This document shows, piece by piece, positions 2,984 through 11,624 of a DNA stretch of 35,521 nt (position 1 is the stretch's first letter; the number at the start of each line of letters is the position of its first letter). The stretch is from the NCBI GenBank assembly GCA_900542115.1, contig UQMC01000001.1:1-35521 (forward strand), given 5' to 3'. Below the pieces are notes generated by a model that made no database searches, had not been told where the DNA came from, and was given only the letters and a program-made list of their open reading frames with translations. Origin of the DNA: an uncultured Oscillibacter sp. (GTDB lineage: Bacteria > Bacillota > Clostridia > Oscillospirales > Oscillospiraceae). The translations under genes and the position numbers were made by a program.

Positions 2984-3012
2984 TTGAAATTAGAGAAAGC
3001 GTGCATTATAAT
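2984..3012 (+). promoter_or_regulatory. Sigma-A promoter of typA
   Basis: TTGAAA (2984-2989), 17-base spacer, perfect TATAAT (3007-3012), about 46 bases upstream of the typA start. Nothing else is recognisable in the 120 bases between this and the serA promoter. Confidence 0.78.
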
Positions 3013-3058
3013 AATAGGCTGTGCAAAAATCCTTTAGATAGGAAAGGACATTCAGATT

Positions 3059-4882
3059 ATGCAGAACGAACATTTGAGAAACGTAGCTATTATCGCCCAC
3101 GTTGACCATGGCAAGACAACGCTGGTGGACGAGATGCTCAAGCAGGGCGGCGTCTACCGGGAAAATCAGGAGGTTGTGGACCGCGTGATGGACTCCGGCG
3201 ATCTGGAGCGGGAGCGCGGCATTACCATTCTGGCCAAGAACACCGCCGTCCGATATAAGGACGTAAAGATCAACGTGGTGGACACCCCGGGTCACGCCGA
3301 CTTCGGCGGCGAGGTGGAGCGCATTTTGAAGATGGTCAACGGTGTCATCCTGCTGGTGGACGCCGCTGAGGGTCCCATGCCTCAGACCCGCTTCGTCCTC
3401 AGCCGCGCACTGGAGCTGGGTCACCGGGTCATTGTGGTGGTCAACAAGATCGACCGTCCCGACCAGCGCATCCACGAGGTCATCGACGAGGTGCTGGAAC
3501 TGCTGATGGACCTCAACGCCACTCCCGAGCAGCTGGACTCCCCCATGCTGTTCTGCTCCGGCCGGCAGGGCACGGCCTCCTATTCCCCCGATGTGCCGGG
3601 CACGGACCTCAAGCCGTTGTTCGAGACCATTCTGGAGTACATCCCCGCTCCCGAGGCGGATGTGGACCAGCCGTTCCAGATGCTGGTCAGCTCCATCGAC
3701 TATAATGAGTTCGTGGGCCGCATCGCCATCGGCCGCATCGAGCGCGGCACTCTGAAGCAGAATCAGGAGATCGCCGTTTGCAACTACCATGACCCGGACG
3801 CCGCCCCCAAGAAGGCCAAGGCCGTGTCCATTTACGAGTTTGAGGGCCTGGCTCGGAAGCAGGTGACGGAGTCCACCGCCGGCAACATCATCGCCATGAG
3901 CGGCATCCCCGACATTACCATCGGCGATACCATCTGCGCACCCTCCGCCGTGGAGCCGCTGCCCTTTGTGAAGATCAGCGCCCCCACGCTGGAGATGACG
4001 TTCTCCGTCAACGATTCCCCCTATGCCGGCCGGGAGGGTAAGTTTGTCACCTCCCGTCAGATTCGCGAGCGTCTGTACCGCGAAACGCTGAAGGACGTTT
4101 CCCTGAAGGTCACGGATACCGACCGCGATACCGCGTTCAACGTGGCGGGCCGGGGCGAGATGTCTTTGTCTATCCTTATCGAGACCATGCGCCGTGAAGG
4201 CTACGAGTTTCAGGTTTCCCCCCCGCGTGTGCTGTATCAGGAGATCGATGGCAAGAAGTGCGAGCCCATTGAGCGCCTTGTGGTGGACGTGCCCGGCGAC
4301 TGCGTAGGCGCGGTCATTGAAAAGCTGGGCCAGCGCAAGGGCGATCTGGTGGAAATGACCCCTGTGGGCGACCGCATGAAGGTGGAGTTCCTGATTCCCG
4401 CCCGGGGCCTGTTCGGCTACCGCAATGATTTCCTCACCGACACCAAGGGCGAGGGCATCATGGCCTCCGTGTTCGATTCCTACGCCCCCTATAAGGGCGA
4501 CATCCAGCGCCGGGGCATGGGCAGCCTGATCTCCACCGAGACCGGCGAGTCCATTACCTATGGCCTTTATAATGCGCAGGAGCGCGGCACGCTGTTCATC
4601 GGCGCCGGCGTCCCGGTGTACGAGGGCATGATCATCGGCGTTGCCAACCGAGGCGAGGACATTGTGGTGAACGCCTGCCGCAAAAAGCAGCTCACCAACA
4701 CCCGTGCCTCCGGTTCTGATGACGCTCTGCGGCTGGTGCCGCCCCGCCAGATGAGCCTCGAGCAGTGCTTGGAGTTCCTGGCGGACGATGAGCTGCTGGA
4801 GGTCACCCCCAAGAGCCTGCGGATGCGCAAGGCCATTTTGAACCACGAGCAGCGCATGAAGTCCCTGAAGGGCAAAAAGTAA
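3059..4882 (+). CDS. typA: Ribosome-binding translational GTPase TypA/BipA
   Basis: 607 residues, the full length of the family. The GTPase motifs are G1 AHVDHGKT (13-20), the RGITI switch (53-57), G3 DTPGH (75-79) and G4 NKID (129-132), followed by EF-G-like domains II, III and V and the TypA-specific C-terminal domain. The family acts on the 70S ribosome and supports ribosome assembly and growth under stress or cold. A ribosome-binding GGAAAGGA sits about 10 bases upstream of the ATG. It has its own promoter and terminator, so it is probably monocistronic. Confidence 0.96.
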   Translation: MQNEHLRNVAIIAHVDHGKTTLVDEMLKQGGVYRENQEVVDRVMDSGDLERERGITILAKNTAVRYKDVKINVVDTPGHADFGGEVERILKMVNGVILLVDAAEGPMPQTRFVLSRALELGHRVIVVVNKIDRPDQRIHEVIDEVLELLMDLNATPEQLDSPMLFCSGRQGTASYSPDVPGTDLKPLFETILEYIPAPEADVDQPFQMLVSSIDYNEFVGRIAIGRIERGTLKQNQEIAVCNYHDPDAAPKKAKAVSIYEFEGLARKQVTESTAGNIIAMSGIPDITIGDTICAPSAVEPLPFVKISAPTLEMTFSVNDSPYAGREGKFVTSRQIRERLYRETLKDVSLKVTDTDRDTAFNVAGRGEMSLSILIETMRREGYEFQVSPPRVLYQEIDGKKCEPIERLVVDVPGDCVGAVIEKLGQRKGDLVEMTPVGDRMKVEFLIPARGLFGYRNDFLTDTKGEGIMASVFDSYAPYKGDIQRRGMGSLISTETGESITYGLYNAQERGTLFIGAGVPVYEGMIIGVANRGEDIVVNACRKKQLTNTRASGSDDALRLVPPRQMSLEQCLEFLADDELLEVTPKSLRMRKAILNHEQRMKSLKGKK

Positions 4883-4889
4883 AAACCGT

Positions 4890-4925
4890 ACAGCCCGCCG
4901 AGCCATCCCCGGCGGGCTGTGTTTT
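4890..4925 (+). terminator. Intrinsic terminator after typA
   Basis: An 11-bp stem, ACAGCCCGCCG paired with CGGCGGGCTGT, is followed by GTTTT. It starts 7 bases after the typA stop. Confidence 0.82.
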
Positions 4926-4942
4926 AAGCAAAGGAGTATTGT

Positions 4943-5566
4943 ATGAAAAAATTACTGAGCACCTGTCTGGCCGCCCTGCTGCTTTTGAGCATGGCCGGGT
5001 GCGGCAAGACCGACACGGCTGTTGCTGACGCTGCTAAAACCGATACAACTGAGCCTAAGACAGAGGGTATCGGCACCCACCGCGCCGAAATTGAAATTCA
5101 GGACTATGGCACCGTCGCCGTGGAGCTGGACGGAGACGCCGCGCCCATCACCGTGCAGAACTTCATGGACCTTGCCAACGCCGGCTTTTATAACGGCCTG
5201 ACGTTCCACCGCATCATTGCCGGGTTCATGATGCAGGGCGGCGACCCCAACGGCAACGGCACCGGCGGCTCCGAGAATACCATCAAGGGCGAATTTTCCG
5301 CCAACGGTGTGGAAAATCCCCTGTCCCACATCCGGGGCGCCATTTCCATGGCCCGGGCGCAGGACATGGACAGCGCCAGCTCCCAGTTTTTCATCTGCCA
5401 TGCCGACAGCACATTTCTGGACGGTCAGTACGCCTGCTTCGGCTATGTGACGGACGGTATGGACGTGGTGGACGCGGTCTGCGAGGCCGCTCAGCCCACG
5501 GACGATAACGGCACCATCCCGGCGGATCAGCAGCCGGTCATCACCGAGGTTCGCATGATCGACTGA
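4943..5566 (+). CDS. Cyclophilin-type peptidyl-prolyl isomerase, lipoprotein
   Basis: 207 residues. It starts with a lipoprotein signal peptide whose lipobox LSMAGC gives the lipidated Cys20, then a short Thr/Asp/Lys-rich linker, then a cyclophilin domain from about 45 to the end. The domain contains FHRII (catalytic Arg), [14 protein letters not shown] and ASSQFFIC. Cyclophilins catalyse cis-trans isomerisation at proline; anchored outside the membrane, this one probably helps fold secreted proteins. The start ATG follows AAAGGAG. No clear promoter was found between it and the typA terminator, so it may depend on readthrough. Confidence 0.9.
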
Positions 5567-5577
5567 ATTGAAAATGT

Positions 5578-5622
5578 AAATGCCCCGGAGGGAAGTCAGA
5601 GCTTCTCTCCGGGGCATTTTTT
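5578..5622 (+). terminator. Intrinsic terminator after the cyclophilin gene
   Basis: AAATGCCCCGGAG pairs with CTCCGGGGCATTT, and the stem runs into a T tract (CATTTTTTC). It separates the housekeeping genes from the recombinase locus. Confidence 0.85.
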
Positions 5623-5633
5623 CGCCTCCCGGC

Positions 5634-5662
5634 TTTCCAGCGGCGGTGCCCTGTGCGACAAT
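5634..5662 (+). promoter_or_regulatory. Weak candidate promoter of the recombinase gene
   Basis: TTTCCA (5634-5639), 17-base spacer, GACAAT (5657-5662); each box matches consensus at four of six positions. It is the best candidate in the 70-base gap and would fit low recombinase expression. Confidence 0.35.
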
Positions 5663-5690
5663 GCTGTCAAAAGGATTGGGAGGAAACGGT

Positions 5691-6545
5691 ATGAGACAGC
5701 GCAGAGCGCCCGCACCTATTACGGCGCGGCAGATCGATACATTCAGGCGGGAGCTGACACAGCGGGAGTGCAGCCCCGGTACGGTGGAAAATTACGTCCG
5801 CAGCGTTCGAGCCTTCGCCCGCTGGAACCGGGAGGCCCCTGTGACCCGCGGCCGCGCCGCGGAGTGGAGGCGAAGCCTTGCGGAAACATATGCCCCCGCC
5901 ACTGTCAACGCCATGCTGGCTGGGCTGAGTAAATTTTTCACTCTGACGGGCCGGGAGGACTGCCGGGTGCGTCCGCTGCGGCTCCAGCACCGCAGCTTTC
6001 GCTCGGCGGAGCAGGAGCTGAGCCGCGCGGAGTACCGCAGCCTTGTCTGTACCGCCCGCGCAGAGGGCCGGGAACGGTTGGCGCTGCTGATGGAAACGGT
6101 CTGCGCCACCGGGATTCGGGTGGGCGAGGTCCGCTATATCACGGTGGAAGCGGCCCGACGGGGCCGCGCGGACATTGCGCTGAAGGGAAAACTCCGCACG
6201 ATTCTCCTTCCCGCCCGTCTCTGTCGGCGGCTCTTGAAATTCGCCGGGAAAAACAAAATCGCCTTTGGCGCGATCTTCCTCACCAAAAGCGGCCGCCCTT
6301 TGAGCCGCACGCAGATTTGGGCGGAGATGAAGCGCCTGTGCGCCAAGGCGGGCGTGGCGGCGGAGAAGGTGTTTCCCCACAATCTGCGCCACCTCTTTGC
6401 CCGCACGTTTTACGAATCGTGCCGGGATGTTGTAAAGCTGGCGGACATTCTGGGCCACAGCTCCGTGGAGACCACCCGGCTCTACCTCCTGACCACCGGT
6501 GCGGAGCACCTTCGCCAGTTGGAGCGGCTGCGGCTCCTCTGTTAG
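5691..6545 (+). CDS. Tyrosine recombinase (phage-integrase/Xer family), probable DNA invertase
   Basis: 284 residues. An N-terminal SAM-like DNA-binding domain (about 10-90) is followed by a complete catalytic domain: Arg143 in ATGIRVGEV, Lys165/167 in LKGK, H230-x-x-R233 in PHNLRH, His256 in LGHSS and nucleophile Tyr265 in TTRLYLL. It is therefore likely active. The start ATG follows GGGAGG; an upstream in-frame ATG at 5580 lies inside the previous terminator and was rejected. The stop codon (6543-6545) overlaps a 25-bp repeat that recurs inverted 200 bases downstream. This strongly suggests that the repeats are its recombination sites. Other possibilities are a XerC/D paralogue or an element integrase, but no element genes are seen nearby. 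Confidence 0.85.
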   Translation: MRQRRAPAPITARQIDTFRRELTQRECSPGTVENYVRSVRAFARWNREAPVTRGRAAEWRRSLAETYAPATVNAMLAGLSKFFTLTGREDCRVRPLRLQHRSFRSAEQELSRAEYRSLVCTARAEGRERLALLMETVCATGIRVGEVRYITVEAARRGRADIALKGKLRTILLPARLCRRLLKFAGKNKIAFGAIFLTKSGRPLSRTQIWAEMKRLCAKAGVAAEKVFPHNLRHLFARTFYESCRDVVKLADILGHSSVETTRLYLLTTGAEHLRQLERLRLLC

Positions 6546-6568
6546 ACAAAATAACCATTTTGTCAACA
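6544..6568 (+). repeat. Left inverted repeat, candidate recombination site
   Basis: 25 bases, perfectly complementary to 6769-6793. Internally it is a dyad: GACAAAAT (6545-6552), AACC, ATTTTGTC (6557-6564). Paired arms around an asymmetric centre are typical of tyrosine-recombinase sites. The last two bases of the recombinase stop codon lie inside the repeat, so inversion would leave the stop intact. Confidence 0.85.
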
Positions 6569-6768
6569 AATAGCGCTTTGCCTGTCGCCGCAGGAAAAGC
6601 AGGAGGGATTTTTTCCAGAAAAAGCGCACGGAAACAGACCGGCTCTGCGAAAAACAAGGGGCCGGTCCGCTCTCATGCGCTTCTTTTAGGGGAATTGCTT
6701 GCTTTTTTAAAGGCTTTCCGCTATGATTGGGTCAACGAACGGGACAGTGCGTGGGCCTTTGACCGCGC
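6569..6768. other. Putative invertible DNA segment carrying a promoter
   Basis: 200 bases between perfect inverted repeats, with no convincing gene. A + strand promoter candidate (6699-6727) faces the downstream regulator gene. A minus-strand candidate also exists: TTGACC (GGTCAA at 6730-6735), 18 bases, TTTAAA (6706-6711). An imperfect stem pairs GACCGGC near 6636 with GCCGGTC near 6661. In the orientation shown the forward promoter would drive the gene at 6826; after inversion it would point back into the recombinase gene. Confidence 0.65.
6699..6727 (+). promoter_or_regulatory. Promoter candidate inside the invertible segment
   Basis: TTGCTT (6699-6704), 17-base spacer, TATGAT (6722-6727, five of six to consensus). 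It would start transcription near 6734. The RNA would then cross the right inverted repeat, which can form an 8-bp hairpin, before the ribosome-binding AGGGAGG at 6812-6818. Confidence 0.5.
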
Positions 6769-6793
6769 TGTTGACAAAATGGTTATTTTGTCT
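6769..6793 (-). repeat. Right inverted repeat, candidate recombination site
   Basis: Exact reverse complement of 6544-6568 over 25 bases, with the same internal dyad (GACAAAAT, GGTT, ATTTTGTC). The bases flanking both repeats diverge immediately, so the repeat is precisely bounded. Confidence 0.85.
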
Positions 6794-6825
6794 GCCGCTG
6801 TCCCGGAAAGCAGGGAGGACCGGGG

Positions 6826-8091
6826 ATGGGCTACGAATTTAAACGGCCGGACGCAACGGCCATGGAGCGGGTGCTGGCGCGGCACCCCGCCGACCCGGAG
6901 GGTGCGGTGCTGCGCCTCGCGTGGCAGGCGGGCCTCAGCCGGGAGGAAATTGCGGGCCTGACATGGCCGCAGGTGGATTTGACGGACAGCGTCCTGTACC
7001 TGTCCGACCGCACCGTGCCGCTGGAGGGCGACACCCTGAACTGCCTCCGCCGGCGCCATGAGCGGTACGCCGCCGTGTCCGACCATGTGGTGATCTCGGA
7101 CCGCTACAAGCGCCCCATGCCGCCGGAATCCGTGTCCCGTCTGGCCCGGAACGCGTTGGATGCCGAGGGCCTGCGGGTGAGCCTGAAGGATCTGCGTCAG
7201 GATTTTGTCATCCGCCAGTTGGAAACCCATGACTGGCCCTACGCCGCCCGCGTCAGCGGCATGGCGGTCTCCACCCTTCGGGGCGCCTTCTCCCAATATT
7301 TCCGCCCCAAGGAGGAAAAGCGCCCGGAGCCGCCGGGCAATATGCAGGAGCGGGAATACCTCCTTTGGCGGATTTTGCAGCAGGAGGGCGGCTCCCTTGT
7401 GGGGATGGCCCTGTGGATGAGCTGGAAACTGAATATGCAGCCCGGCGAGATCTTGGAGCTTACATGGCCGCAGGTGGACTTCGACCGCGACGTCATCACC
7501 CTTCCGGACCGCGAGATCCCCATGGGCAGCCGCCTCAGCCGCCAGCTTCGGGACGCCTGGGACCACCGCCGTGACCCCGCCCAGCCCCGCATCATGCTGG
7601 CCCCGGCCACCGGCCGCCCCATGGACCTTGCTCGCCTCTCCACCATCACCCGCACGGCCCTCATCCACGGCGGGCTGGAGGACATCAGCCTCGGCGACCT
7701 TTGCCGCTGGAGCCGCCGGGATGACCGCCGCCGTGCGCTGCTGGCCGCCCTGAAGGAAACCGGCTCCCTGACCCGCGAGGAGGTCATGACCCGTCTCGGC
7801 ATCACGAAAAATGCCGCCCTCACGCTCCTGAACGCTCTCCGCGCCGAGGGCGCGGTGCTCCGCGTCGGCAGCCGCTACTACCCCGCCGATGCGGTCACGC
7901 CCCCGGACGCCCAGCCCGCCGCCGTGCTGGCTTTCCTCCGGGAAAACGGCCCTGCCGCCCGCAAGGCCATCGCCGCCCGCTTGGGCCTTCCCCCGGCGCA
8001 GACCGCCGCGCTGCTGCGTCGAATGGCGGCGGAGGGCCGTCTCGTCCTCACCGGCAAGCGCTACGCCCTCCCCACCGATTCCCCCGACTGA
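6826..8091 (+). CDS. Double decayed recombinase-like domains with two C-terminal winged helices; candidate regulator
   Basis: 421 residues. Two tandem segments resemble the core of tyrosine-recombinase catalytic domains, each with the near-identical motif LTWPQVD (45-51 and 212-218). The catalytic residues are mostly gone. In copy 1 the first Arg is Ser (AGLSREE), HxLRH has become SLKDLRQD, and GHSS has become GMAV. In copy 2 the first Arg is replaced (NMQPGEI) and the box II region reads SLGDLCRW. After these come two winged-helix-like units, about 303-353 and 364-416, each ending in a beta-hairpin (RVGSRYYP, VLTGKRYALP). I infer a DNA-binding protein that no longer cuts DNA: either a transcription factor or an accessory factor that directs the recombinase. 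The start follows AGGGAGG by 7 bases. Its only evident promoter lies in the putative invertible segment. I know no named family with this layout. Confidence 0.8.
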   Translation: MGYEFKRPDATAMERVLARHPADPEGAVLRLAWQAGLSREEIAGLTWPQVDLTDSVLYLSDRTVPLEGDTLNCLRRRHERYAAVSDHVVISDRYKRPMPPESVSRLARNALDAEGLRVSLKDLRQDFVIRQLETHDWPYAARVSGMAVSTLRGAFSQYFRPKEEKRPEPPGNMQEREYLLWRILQQEGGSLVGMALWMSWKLNMQPGEILELTWPQVDFDRDVITLPDREIPMGSRLSRQLRDAWDHRRDPAQPRIMLAPATGRPMDLARLSTITRTALIHGGLEDISLGDLCRWSRRDDRRRALLAALKETGSLTREEVMTRLGITKNAALTLLNALRAEGAVLRVGSRYYPADAVTPPDAQPAAVLAFLRENGPAARKAIAARLGLPPAQTAALLRRMAAEGRLVLTGKRYALPTDSPD

Positions 8092-8123
8092 CCCTCCCCA
8101 CAAACGCCACACTTACAAACAAC

Positions 8124-8160
8124 AAAAAACACGGAAATTGCGTTATTTCCGTGTTTTTTT
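8124..8160 (+). terminator. Strong intrinsic terminator after the regulator gene
   Basis: AAAAAACACGGAAAT pairs with ATTTCCGTGTTTTTT and runs into further T. The A-rich left arm would also let it work on the minus strand. It separates the switch locus from the S-layer gene, so the latter is not simply read through. Confidence 0.88.
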
Positions 8161-8189
8161 ACATCTGAATTACGAACCGCGCAAATCTA

Positions 8190-8218
8190 TTTACATTCCG
8201 CCCGCCCCCTGCTAAATT
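8190..8218 (+). promoter_or_regulatory. Promoter of the S-layer gene
   Basis: TTTACA (8190-8195), 17-base spacer, TAAATT (8213-8218). The implied start near 8225 gives an untranslated leader of about 280 bases. Confidence 0.55.
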
Positions 8219-8224
8219 GAGCTT

Positions 8225-8504
8225 GCGAAACAAAGCTGCGGGCAAACTGCCTCCAAGCTCCGTGCTTGGTGTAGGCTCGTAACGCCCGACGCAAGTCGGG
8301 CCGTTCCCATTCTCCATTCGCAAACCAGCGAAGCGTTTGCGGATGGAAAAGCGAGGAGAAGGCTCGTCCGATATCGGCCAAACCGCTTGCGGTTCGGCGA
8401 TATCTCAGAGCCATCGACGAGCAGGCTAGCCCCGACACGAAACCCGGAACCCGGGGGCGGGGACTCCAAGGCGCTGTTTCGACATTTTATAAGGAGGAAA
8501 CCCC
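8225..8504 (+). ncRNA. Long hairpin-rich 5' leader of the S-layer mRNA
   Basis: At least four consecutive hairpins are visible. CCAAGC/GCTTGG lies at 8253-8269. CCCGAC/GTCGGG, closed by a GCAA tetraloop, lies at 8285-8300. A 12-bp stem, CCATTCGCAAAC with GTTTGCGGATGG, lies at 8314-8346. A long arm lies at 8370-8404 (GATATCG/CGATATC outside, AACCG/CGGTT inside). The last is enclosed by GCTCGTC (8362-8368) and GACGAGC (8416-8422). The ribosome-binding AAGGAGG precedes the ATG. Long structured leaders are known to stabilise abundant S-layer mRNAs, so that role is likely. I do not recognise a riboswitch. Confidence 0.55.
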
Positions 8505-11500
8505 ATGAAGAAGTTCCTTTCTCTGGTACTGGCTCTGGTGATGACCATGTCTCTGGTCACTGTCAGCGCCGGTGCCAAGGACTTCGCCGATGACAGCAAG
8601 ATCACCTACAAAGAAGCTGTCGACGTGATGTCCGCCGCGAAGGTTATCGACGGTTATACCGACGGTTCCTTCAATCCCACCGCCACTCTGACCCGTGGCG
8701 CTGCCGCCAAGATCATCTGCAACCTGATCCTTGGCCCCACCACCGCATCCGCTCTGGTTGCTGACGCCGCTCCCTACAGCGACGTTCCCACCACCCACAC
8801 CTTCGCTGGCTACATTGCTTACTGCCAGAAGGAAGGCATCATCTCCGGTTATGCTGACGGCACCTTCAAGCCCGCCAACTCCCTGACCGGCTATGCCTTC
8901 ATGAAGATGCTGCTGGGCGCTCTGGGCTACAAGGCCGAGAACGAGGGCTACACCGGCGCTAACTGGTCCATCAACGTTGCCAAGCGCGCTCTGAACATCG
9001 GCCTGGACGATGATCTGGTCGGCGAGTTCAACGGCGTCAAGGCTGTCAACCGTGAAGAGGCTTGCCTGTATGCCTTCAACACCCTGAAGGCTACCATGGT
9101 CGAGTATGACAAGAACTCCACCGTCACCGTTGGCAACATCACCATCAAGGACACCTCCTCCGCTAAGGAGATGGCCAACACCGGCAAGACCGATGGCAAC
9201 ATCGACAAGGACGGCAAGATGCAGTTCGCTGAGAAGTACTTCACCGATCTGAAGGAGTTCGACAGCACTGATGATTTCTATCGTCCCGCTACCCAGTGGA
9301 AGATCAAGTCCGAGGAAGTCGGCAAGTACACCGACACCGCTGACCTGACCTACACCAAGAAGGTTGAGTCCGGCGACATCTACAAGGATCTGGATCTGGG
9401 CAACACCATTTCCGCTAAGAACGTTTCCGTGTATGTCAACGGCGAAGAGGCTGCCGCTGCCGAGGTTGCTATCAAGAAGGGCAGCGAGGATGCCATCGGC
9501 GATAAGACCGGCTCCAAGGGCAACGGCGTTCTGACCGAGGTCTTCTACGATAAGGACGATGATTCTGTGGTCATCACCCAGATCGTGACCTATGTGGGCG
9601 AGATCAACAAGACCGTCAAGGCTACCGCCAAGAAGGACGCTTATGTTGTTCTGACTCCGGAGACCAGTGCCAACGGTAACGTCTCTGCTCCTGTGAACCA
9701 GAACGGCGATCGGTACAAGAACCTTGAGTTCGAGACTGATGAAAAGTTTGACGATGATACCTATGTTCTGTACACCTACAGCTTCAAGGCTGACGAGGTG
9801 AAGTCCGTGGTTGCCGCTGAGAAGGTCGAGGGCTATGTCTCCAAGACCATCAACAAGACCAATGACCTGGATCAGAACAATGGCATGACCATTGCCGGCA
9901 CCGACTACAAGATGTCCAAGGCCAACGCTGGTGACGCTCTGGGCAACGTGTCCGTGAAGAACGATTACACCGTCTATCTGGATCAGTACGGCTACATCAT
10001 CTATGTCGAGGAGATCAAGGAGATCGGCAACTACGCTCTGCTGCTGGCTACTGCCAACAAGGGCTCCTTCATCGGCGACAAGGCTCAGCTCCTGCTGACC
10101 GACGGCACCACCAAGTTCGTCACCACTGACGAGAACTATCACACCGGCTCCAAGGCTATCGCCAACAACACCATTGTCACCTTCCGCGAGAACTCTGACG
10201 GCACTTACACCCTGAAGGCTGTTACCAAGAACGGTGGTACCCAGTCCAACGCGACCAACACAACTTCCTTCGCCATGAAGAATGACAAGGCCGGTATCGT
10301 GATCGAGACCGTTTCTGGCAAAAACACCACTGTCACCGCCAACAGCGCCTCCGTGTTCGTGGTGGCTGACAAGCTGACCGATCTTACCGTTCCTGCTTCT
10401 CTCGCCGACATCGACGATTGGACCTCCTACACCGGTATCAAGAACGCTCCCTCCGTCTCCGGCGGCAACGTGAAGGTGTACTACTACTGCAAGTCCAACA
10501 GCATGGTCACCGTCATGTTCGTGGTGCCCGCTTCCGGCGCTACTGTTGAGGACGATGCTAAGAACTCCGTGTTCTTTGCCAATGAGTCTGTCTCCGACCT
10601 GATCCACGATGAGGACGGCGACTACTTCGAGTACAACGCCATCGTGGATGGTAAGATCACCACCGTCAAGGTGAAAGATACCACCACCAACGCTGCTAAG
10701 CTGAACGGCCTGTACAAGAACTACAGCACCAACAACAAGGGCTATGTCACCAGCACTTCTGCTTATGTTGCCTATGGTGCAACTGCTGGTAAGGATGCCG
10801 GCGATGCCAAGGAGTACCTGACTGGCGAAGGCATTGCCAAGACCTCCAAGGAGTACACTGTGACTCTGGGCACCACCAAGGGCCCCAATGCTGTCATCAC
10901 CGTTGATGACAACGCCAAGATCTACTTCGTCGACAAGGACGGCAACATCTCCGAGTCCAGCTACAAGGCTATCTATCAGGATGCCAATGACAAGGTGTAC
11001 GCCATCGTTGAGGATTACCTGGTGAAGACCCTGGTTATCGAGGAAGTTGAGGATAAGGCTGCTCCCTCTACCCCCACTCTGAGTGATGATATCACTGTTA
11101 AGAGTGTCGATCTGTATGCTGGTACCTTCACTTATGTTGTGGAGTCTGGTAAGCTGATTACTCCTACCACGGATGATATCTATGCTGTTCTGGCCAACGC
11201 TGGCTGCACCAATATCACCTATGATAGCAAGACTACTTCTTGGAGCTACACCATGCCCAACGGCGTGACCGTGAAGGATCACACCGTGACCGGTACTCAG
11301 GTTGTTGATACTCCTAAGGGTATGACTTCCACCAAGGTTGAGGAGAAGACCACTGGTTCTGACACCATTCCTGCTCGTGTTGTGACCTGCACTCTCACCG
11401 ATAAGACTCTCAAGGCTACCGCCCTGAAGAATTTTACCGATGGTGTTGCTGAGGTTGCTTTCAGCATCAATGGTAATGAGATGGTTGTTGCCGATGGCTC

Positions 11501-11600
11501 CACCACTACCATTGCCGAAATCATTGCTGCTTATGACGGTTTCTTCATGCTGCGCGACAGCAAGGGTGCCCTCATTGAGTATGTAGTGTTCACGGCCTAA
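8505..11600 (+). CDS. SLH-domain S-layer/surface protein
   Basis: 1031 residues. A signal peptide (1-24, cut near SAGA) is followed by three SLH repeats: 27-70 (GYTDGSFNP), 91-141 (SGYADGTFKP) and a weaker one at about 153-200. The rest is an Asp/Lys/Thr-rich extracellular region of beta-type character with many short Gly/Asn turns and no LPXTG or membrane anchor. SLH domains bind pyruvylated secondary cell-wall polymer, so the protein probably forms or joins the S-layer. Codon use is strongly biased (GGC, AAG, ACC), as in abundant proteins. From about base 11,060 T-ending codons become much commoner, hinting at a mosaic C-terminus. It has its own promoter, a long leader and a strong terminator. 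Confidence 0.88.
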   Translation: MKKFLSLVLALVMTMSLVTVSAGAKDFADDSKITYKEAVDVMSAAKVIDGYTDGSFNPTATLTRGAAAKIICNLILGPTTASALVADAAPYSDVPTTHTFAGYIAYCQKEGIISGYADGTFKPANSLTGYAFMKMLLGALGYKAENEGYTGANWSINVAKRALNIGLDDDLVGEFNGVKAVNREEACLYAFNTLKATMVEYDKNSTVTVGNITIKDTSSAKEMANTGKTDGNIDKDGKMQFAEKYFTDLKEFDSTDDFYRPATQWKIKSEEVGKYTDTADLTYTKKVESGDIYKDLDLGNTISAKNVSVYVNGEEAAAAEVAIKKGSEDAIGDKTGSKGNGVLTEVFYDKDDDSVVITQIVTYVGEINKTVKATAKKDAYVVLTPETSANGNVSAPVNQNGDRYKNLEFETDEKFDDDTYVLYTYSFKADEVKSVVAAEKVEGYVSKTINKTNDLDQNNGMTIAGTDYKMSKANAGDALGNVSVKNDYTVYLDQYGYIIYVEEIKEIGNYALLLATANKGSFIGDKAQLLLTDGTTKFVTTDENYHTGSKAIANNTIVTFRENSDGTYTLKAVTKNGGTQSNATNTTSFAMKNDKAGIVIETVSGKNTTVTANSASVFVVADKLTDLTVPASLADIDDWTSYTGIKNAPSVSGGNVKVYYYCKSNSMVTVMFVVPASGATVEDDAKNSVFFANESVSDLIHDEDGDYFEYNAIVDGKITTVKVKDTTTNAAKLNGLYKNYSTNNKGYVTSTSAYVAYGATAGKDAGDAKEYLTGEGIAKTSKEYTVTLGTTKGPNAVITVDDNAKIYFVDKDGNISESSYKAIYQDANDKVYAIVEDYLVKTLVIEEVEDKAAPSTPTLSDDITVKSVDLYAGTFTYVVESGKLITPTTDDIYAVLANAGCTNITYDSKTTSWSYTMPNGVTVKDHTVTGTQVVDTPKGMTSTKVEEKTTGSDTIPARVVTCTLTDKTLKATALKNFTDGVAEVAFSINGNEMVVADGSTTTIAEIIAAYDGFFMLRDSKGALIEYVVFTA

Positions 11601-11624
11601 TCTCATCTGAGTTGAGATAACGAG

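Follow-up and report, generated by a model that had tools for sequence, protein, structure and literature searches.

A 35,521-nucleotide stretch of DNA from an uncultured Oscillibacter sp. (contig UQMC01000001.1; the whole stretch is called the window) contained a putative invertible promoter segment between a tyrosine recombinase gene and the gene of a 421-amino-acid (aa) protein, here called TP. The next gene encoded a surface-layer-like (S-layer-like) protein with SLH domains. A phase-variable promoter probably controls TP, a protein of recombinase descent that would in turn regulate the neighboring S-layer gene. Comparison with related loci supported the repeats, the crossover-type sites, the intact linked recombinase, the promoter position, the occurrence of both orientations among relatives, and the pairing of TP with SLH genes. 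The features of the putative switch were as follows:

5691..6545, plus strand: tyrosine recombinase with intact catalytic residues (open reading frame (ORF), domain, and family alignment)
6544..6568, plus strand: left inverted-repeat arm, dyad core 6545-6564
6569..6768, strand not applicable: putative invertible segment, 200 nucleotides (nt) between the arms
6699..6727, plus strand: promoter box TTGCTT-17-TATGAT, weak alone, facing TP in the ON orientation
6769..6793, minus strand: right inverted-repeat arm, dyad core 6773-6792
6826..8091, plus strand: TP, 421 aa, with recombinase-fold domain 1 (aa 1-161), domain 2 (aa 173-300), and tandem winged helices (~aa 294-416)

The recombinase ORF (5691-6545) encoded 284 aa with Phage_integrase and SAM-like domains. 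The catalytic set R143, K167, H230, R233, H256, and Y265 was present, with each residue conserved in at least 98 of the 99 members of the family, and the gene was intact, as an earlier sequence-only reading of this region had claimed. A species-genome scan returned 93 recombinase relatives, from which 80 loci were kept. Together with four TP loci, 20 further loci, and the window, these made up a set of 105 loci; nine were too short 3' of the gene, and 96 were tested for repeats. Relatives of the window were mostly Oscillospiraceae, and the genus with the closest full-length matches in genomes included Dysosmobacter and Oscillibacter assemblies. The window's own segment is known from one assembled sequence, and the relatives supplied all comparison of states.

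The arms were complementary at 25 of 25 nt across a spacer of 200 nt, matching the perfect repeats of the sequence-only reading, and formed the longest inverted repeat listed within 4500-9500. The left arm shared two bases with the recombinase stop codon. Each arm was a dyad on its own (GACAAAAT-AACC-ATTTTGTC), which is the shape of tyrosine-recombinase crossover sites. With up to three mismatches allowed, the 20-nt core occurred at two sites in the whole window, both of them the arms, and at none in 100 shuffles. Inverted 20-mer pairs 3' of the recombinase were identical at 29 of the 96 loci, had at most two mismatches at 63, and at most four at 80; the corresponding shuffled means (three shuffled sets) were 0.0, 0.0, and 6.7. 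The sequence-only reading had named a lack of conserved repeats beside the recombinase in relatives as one of two points that would refute it; the 63 of 96 loci with at most two mismatches did not bear this out.

At 74 of the 80 loci with an accepted repeat, no more than 60 nt separated the start of the left arm from the end of the recombinase gene. Half-sites were similar across loci and the middle varied, with 51 different central tetramers among 77 distinct loci. The central four bases were the same in both arms at 75 of these 77 loci, a figure favored to some degree by picking the best-matching 20-mer, which favors matches in the middle. Agreement within a locus combined with diversity between loci matches the demand of strand exchange on the overlap region.

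Overlapping repeat pairs followed the recombinase at L018, L025, L039, L054, and L062, which suggests three or more sites, forming nested or alternative invertible segments. A recombinase relative was the first long ORF after the recombinase in 12 of the 80 kept loci (L002, L004, L007, L009, L011, L014, L018, L022, L024, L029, L034, and L075), and some had two or three such stretches. These loci, with repeats detected in only part of them, are possible recombinase cascades.

Inside the window's segment, the promoter box consisted of TTGCTT (6699-6704), a 17-nt spacer, and TATGAT (6722-6727). Sigma-70-type boxes were scored with hexamer weights. Across segments, the -10 of the box sat ~72 bp in from the downstream arm's outer end, after a 17-nt spacer. 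By the strict test, five of the 77 distinct segments faced the downstream gene (ON: L007, L029, L036, L222, and the window) and 31 faced the recombinase (OFF); 200 shuffles gave means of 0.44 ON and 0.45 OFF, with a maximum of 3. In total, 36 of the 77 segments had a box at the fixed position, compared with ~0.9 expected. Loci L155, L158, L186, L187, and L219, which had the same recombinase-repeat-TP-SLH layout as the window, all faced OFF. Among 56 listed pairs of homologous segments, 7 were oppositely oriented, 4 of the 7 over at least 90 nt. One metagenome-assembled genome contained such a pair (L029 and L056, 72% identity over 208 nt). Both states of such segments exist among relatives, and the window is ON, its box facing TP, in agreement with the orientation assigned by the sequence-only reading. 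A scan of the sequenced orientation only listed no terminator-like site inside the segment.

TP was a single 421-aa ORF composed of two degenerate recombinase folds and tandem winged helices. In an alignment of domain 1 with 4a8e, S38 replaced the arginine, K121 replaced the histidine, and R124 was retained; by our own reading F155 stands where the catalytic tyrosine of domain 1 would be. TP is apparently catalytically dead, the residue-level check covering domain 1 only. The winged helices were similar in fold to the C-terminal winged helices of SelB (PDB 2uwm and 1wsu), a likeness of fold only. None of the three proteins (recombinase, TP, and S-layer-like protein) had an NCBIfam family above the cut-off.

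Overall, 397 proteins matched TP at E <= 0.001 among 7998 candidates scored, and the sequence cluster to which the window's TP belongs had 848 members. Relatives occurred in 3 of 394 genomes of the order (E <= 1e-20), 12 of 300 genomes of the family (E <= 1e-5), and 47 of 86 within a single genus, the last with one to five matches per genome. No relative was confirmed in the viral contigs scanned. From the 86-genome genus, 60 of 92 match rows were examined as TP loci, and just four of the 60 had the recombinase and repeats. With L219, added via its recombinase, and the window, there were six switch loci. On a TP tree with five of the six (L158, having an in-frame stop, was omitted), the switch needed at least three changes, which makes gain or loss on more than one occasion probable; the long branches of the window and L155 weaken this inference. 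L158 and a further TP relative (G008:C10:15792-17039) each had one in-frame stop (TAG and TGA), and some TP cassettes may be decaying.

Downstream of TP, the window contained the following features:

8124..8159, plus strand in one scan and minus in another: terminator-like T-run hairpin in the stretch separating TP from the S-layer gene
8158..8176, plus strand: operator-like element scoring barely above the 99% shuffled level, 13 bp 5' of the S-layer promoter's -35
8190..8218, plus strand: promoter-like site of the S-layer gene, TTTACA-17-TAAATT
8425..8430, plus strand: GCTAGC of the conserved S-layer leader element
8505..11600, plus strand: SLH-domain S-layer-like protein, 1031 aa, presumed output

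The S-layer-like gene product had SLH domains (PF00395, E=1e-18) in two stretches, and its gene showed the strongest codon bias among nine window genes measured (effective number of codons 31.3, next 32.9). An SLH gene came directly after TP in 48 of 51 loci (window included; at least 1.5 kb downstream required), a pairing that would be difficult to account for if TP had no local role. The sequence-only reading had described the target of the switch as a DNA-binding protein instead of a surface protein. This was right in kind and incomplete, as it missed the two recombinase folds joined to the winged helices and the S-layer-like gene next to them; given the 48 pairings, what the switch ultimately controls is probably a surface protein after all.

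An operator-like element lay just 5' of the S-layer promoter. It consisted of two half-sites spaced by roughly one turn of the helix (TTTTCA...TTAAAAG, or TTTATCA...ATTACAA). It scored above the 99% shuffled level in 22 of 25 held-out TP loci and in 8 of 11 TP-less loci; the window's own score was 9.07 against a level of 8.97. The operator variants tracked the TP tree, with 4 changes compared with 14.2 when shuffled.

A conserved element was also present in the S-layer leader (window 8385-8460 and the leaders of L129-L188), with an invariant GCTAGC in a hairpin loop. GCTAGC was found in 50 of 51 intergenic stretches, ~70-100 nt before the S-layer start codon, and once in the window, where base composition predicted 11. 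The leader pattern, tied to the start codon, gave 106 rows in 54 of 86 genomes (76 rows directly at a listed SLH gene), and the reversed-pattern control gave 0. For 32 of 50 leaders the GCTAGC-loop hairpin was stronger than with shuffled flanks (p <= 0.05). The window's own leader failed this simple test (p 0.99) because its loop carries an insert; the whole leader folded better than all 200 shuffles (z -4.25). RNAalifold on a MAFFT leader alignment gave a weak consensus of -0.28 kcal/mol, and the window and ten loci had no Rfam match at gathering scores. The insert (8311-8362) held a palindromic repeat, GCAAAC...GTTTGCG, at 8320-8341, and short matches to the insert recurred at many places in the genomes searched.

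An apparent co-occurrence of leader and TP came from a pattern of limited length and did not hold: in TP-bearing genomes this pattern placed the GCTAGC leader at 70 of 96 S-layer genes, and in TP-less genomes at 5 of 38 (Fisher 2e-10). With longer patterns and further loci, the same leader element appeared ~120-190 nt upstream of the start in TP-less S-layer loci, too far away for the first pattern to reach. The leader is therefore not TP-specific, and the idea that TP binds RNA stays speculative.

Eight paired S-layer loci had no TP match (L239 and L252-L258), seven convergent and one divergent, with inverted homology starting near the start codons. In all eight pairs exactly one gene had GCTAGC within 300 nt upstream. 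The arrangement suggests cassettes that invert onto one promoter, like slpA/slpB of Lactobacillus acidophilus.

In the mechanism we propose, the recombinase would bind the dyad sites in both arms and exchange strands within their identical central bases, thereby inverting the 200-bp segment. Inversion by tyrosine recombinases that turns a promoter round is established. In the sequenced orientation the promoter (6699-6727) would point towards TP (ON); once inverted, it would face back towards the recombinase gene's 3' end, leaving TP silent (OFF). TP would be devoted to regulating the SLH S-layer gene next to it, and its most likely site of action would be the operator-like element upstream of that gene's own promoter. 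A role as activator is slightly preferred because the element sits directly upstream of the -35. The S-layer protein made would then vary from cell to cell within a population. We infer flipping in the Oscillibacter source organism, the role of TP as a regulator, and its sign and target.

The evidence between the two genes bears on how the S-layer gene would be reached. A simple scan found a terminator-like hairpin in 22 of 51 TP-SLH intergenic stretches, the window's among them, and none in that stretch of the switch loci L155, L158, L186, and L187. Those four loci would suit read-through from the invertible promoter, by which TP and the S-layer gene phase-vary together and TP's own action is minor; the window itself has both the T-run hairpin (8124-8159) and a separate promoter-like site (8190-8218) in the way, and we regard read-through as unlikely. 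A wider role, in which a phase-variable TP regulates other genes or many of them and its S-layer neighbor is not the main target, we regard as quite unlikely given the SLH gene next to TP in nearly all testable loci; the leader and promoter elements at TP-less S-layer loci, including those in genomes with TP elsewhere, speak in its favor. It is very unlikely that the switch is a relic locked ON in this organism: one orientation of the window's segment was seen, as a relic would have it, and set against this are arms identical over 25 nt and intact catalytic residues. The recombinase folds of TP and its position beside a recombinase would fit an action on inversion itself, such as occupying crossover sites or setting the direction or rate of flipping. 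This was set low, as a highly improbable role, since 56 of 60 TP loci had no match to this recombinase in the stretch examined.

Several observations weigh against the proposed phase-variable regulation of the S-layer gene through TP. Profile comparison and hmmsearch gave no significant sequence similarity between TP and the recombinase family. The tracking of the TP tree by the operator variants is not proof, because TP and operator are physically linked and common descent suffices. TP-less S-layer loci also had the leader element and a related promoter-upstream element, so these need not be TP targets and may belong to S-layer genes at large. Among the repeats, the gradient of arm mismatches is biased because the least-mismatched 20-mer was selected, some loci were the same DNA taken twice (80 segments, 77 distinct), the repeat of L236 is probably chance, and repeats were absent at 13 of 76 loci in one testable set and 3 of 20 in another (L227, L228, and L232). 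The plausible forward promoter of the sequence-only reading has little strength of its own: ~13% of 300 shuffled segments equaled its score and a standard promoter scan of the window did not list the box at 6699-6727, yet it is credible because its place and spacing match the promoter box of homologous segments. ON boxes were above chance by the strict test only; a looser positional test of 80 segments gave 11 ON and 52 OFF, compared with 9.4 and 8.8 when shuffled, and its ON count was not above the shuffled one. Finally, the window's segment was seen in one orientation only, and both states come from relatives.

A broader form of the proposed regulation by TP is offered tentatively, as possible and no further. 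In it, a family of regulators would combine a pair of inactive tyrosine-recombinase domains with tandem winged helices of the SelB kind. Each member would be dedicated to its adjoining S-layer gene, and a genome would carry several such cassettes. Some of these would have an active recombinase that flips the promoter of the regulator and so chooses the surface coat, possibly via the conserved GCTAGC hairpin in the S-layer mRNA leader.

Invertible promoters beside tyrosine recombinases are well known. S-layers are changed by DNA inversion in L. acidophilus and Campylobacter fetus, where coding cassettes move to one promoter; the window is unlike these inversions in that a small promoter segment would flip before a regulator. 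The nearest likeness in gut Clostridia was inverton group 139 with invertase group 35, in which invertons adjoin a tyrosine recombinase and 32 of 33 come from Clostridia (PMC11892184). According to the same text, members had arms of 26 and a spacer of 205 in Clostridium sp. D5 and arms of 14 and a spacer of 227 in Intestinimonas butyriciproducens, and orientation shifts were measured in both (PMC11892184). The window resembled this group in its linked recombinase and, on geometry alone, in its arms and spacer. The main text of that source gave no hit for S-layer, SLH, or DNA-binding (PMC11892184).

The cwpV/RecV system of Clostridioides difficile comprises a XerC/XerD-type tyrosine recombinase, a 195-bp segment, 21-bp repeats, and a cell-wall protein as output; recV is not nearby, transcription starts upstream of the repeats, and the OFF state was proposed to act via a terminator (PMC2784873). 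The window was like it in recombinase type, in a short segment between repeats, and in its presumed surface-protein output, and unlike it in that the recombinase ends where the left arm begins and the promoter box lies inside the segment. CmrRST of C. difficile is reported to be a phase-variable regulatory system of response regulators and a sensor kinase (PMC6837544, PMC8844915). Both CmrRST and the window would switch a regulator and not a structural gene, the regulator in the window being a recombinase-fold protein instead. The phase-variable regulator switch of the sequence-only reading was supported overall and belongs to a kind already known from CmrRST (PMC6837544). MrpR/YopR is the master repressor of Bacillus prophage SPbeta, with one core-binding and one catalytic domain (PMC10516654). 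TP resembled MrpR in a tyrosine recombinase fold with catalytic residues lost (domain 1 of TP) and differed in its two catalytic-type domains, tandem winged helices, and S-layer gene neighbor. The switch is of a known kind; for the TP family, its pairing with S-layer genes, and the leader element, no report was found in searches of an open-access library, which lacks most subscription papers.

Phages, host, and neighbors meet a cell at its S-layer. If a common group of gut Oscillospiraceae carries several S-layer cassettes, often accompanied by a regulator and in some cases governed by a DNA flip switch, the surface identity of these little-studied commensals would be set in part by a small DNA state that existing metagenome reads could reveal. 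TP would also lengthen the short list of recombinase folds turned regulators, in which MrpR is documented, to a chromosomal family found in over half of the genomes of one genus (47 of 86).

Features upstream of the recombinase were as follows:

4943-5566: cyclophilin-type gene
5578-5619: terminator-like hairpin 3' of the cyclophilin-type gene

Two long antisense ORFs on the minus strand, of 1039 aa (8487-11606) and 638 aa (2990-4906), mirrored strongly codon-biased genes and are probably composition artefacts.

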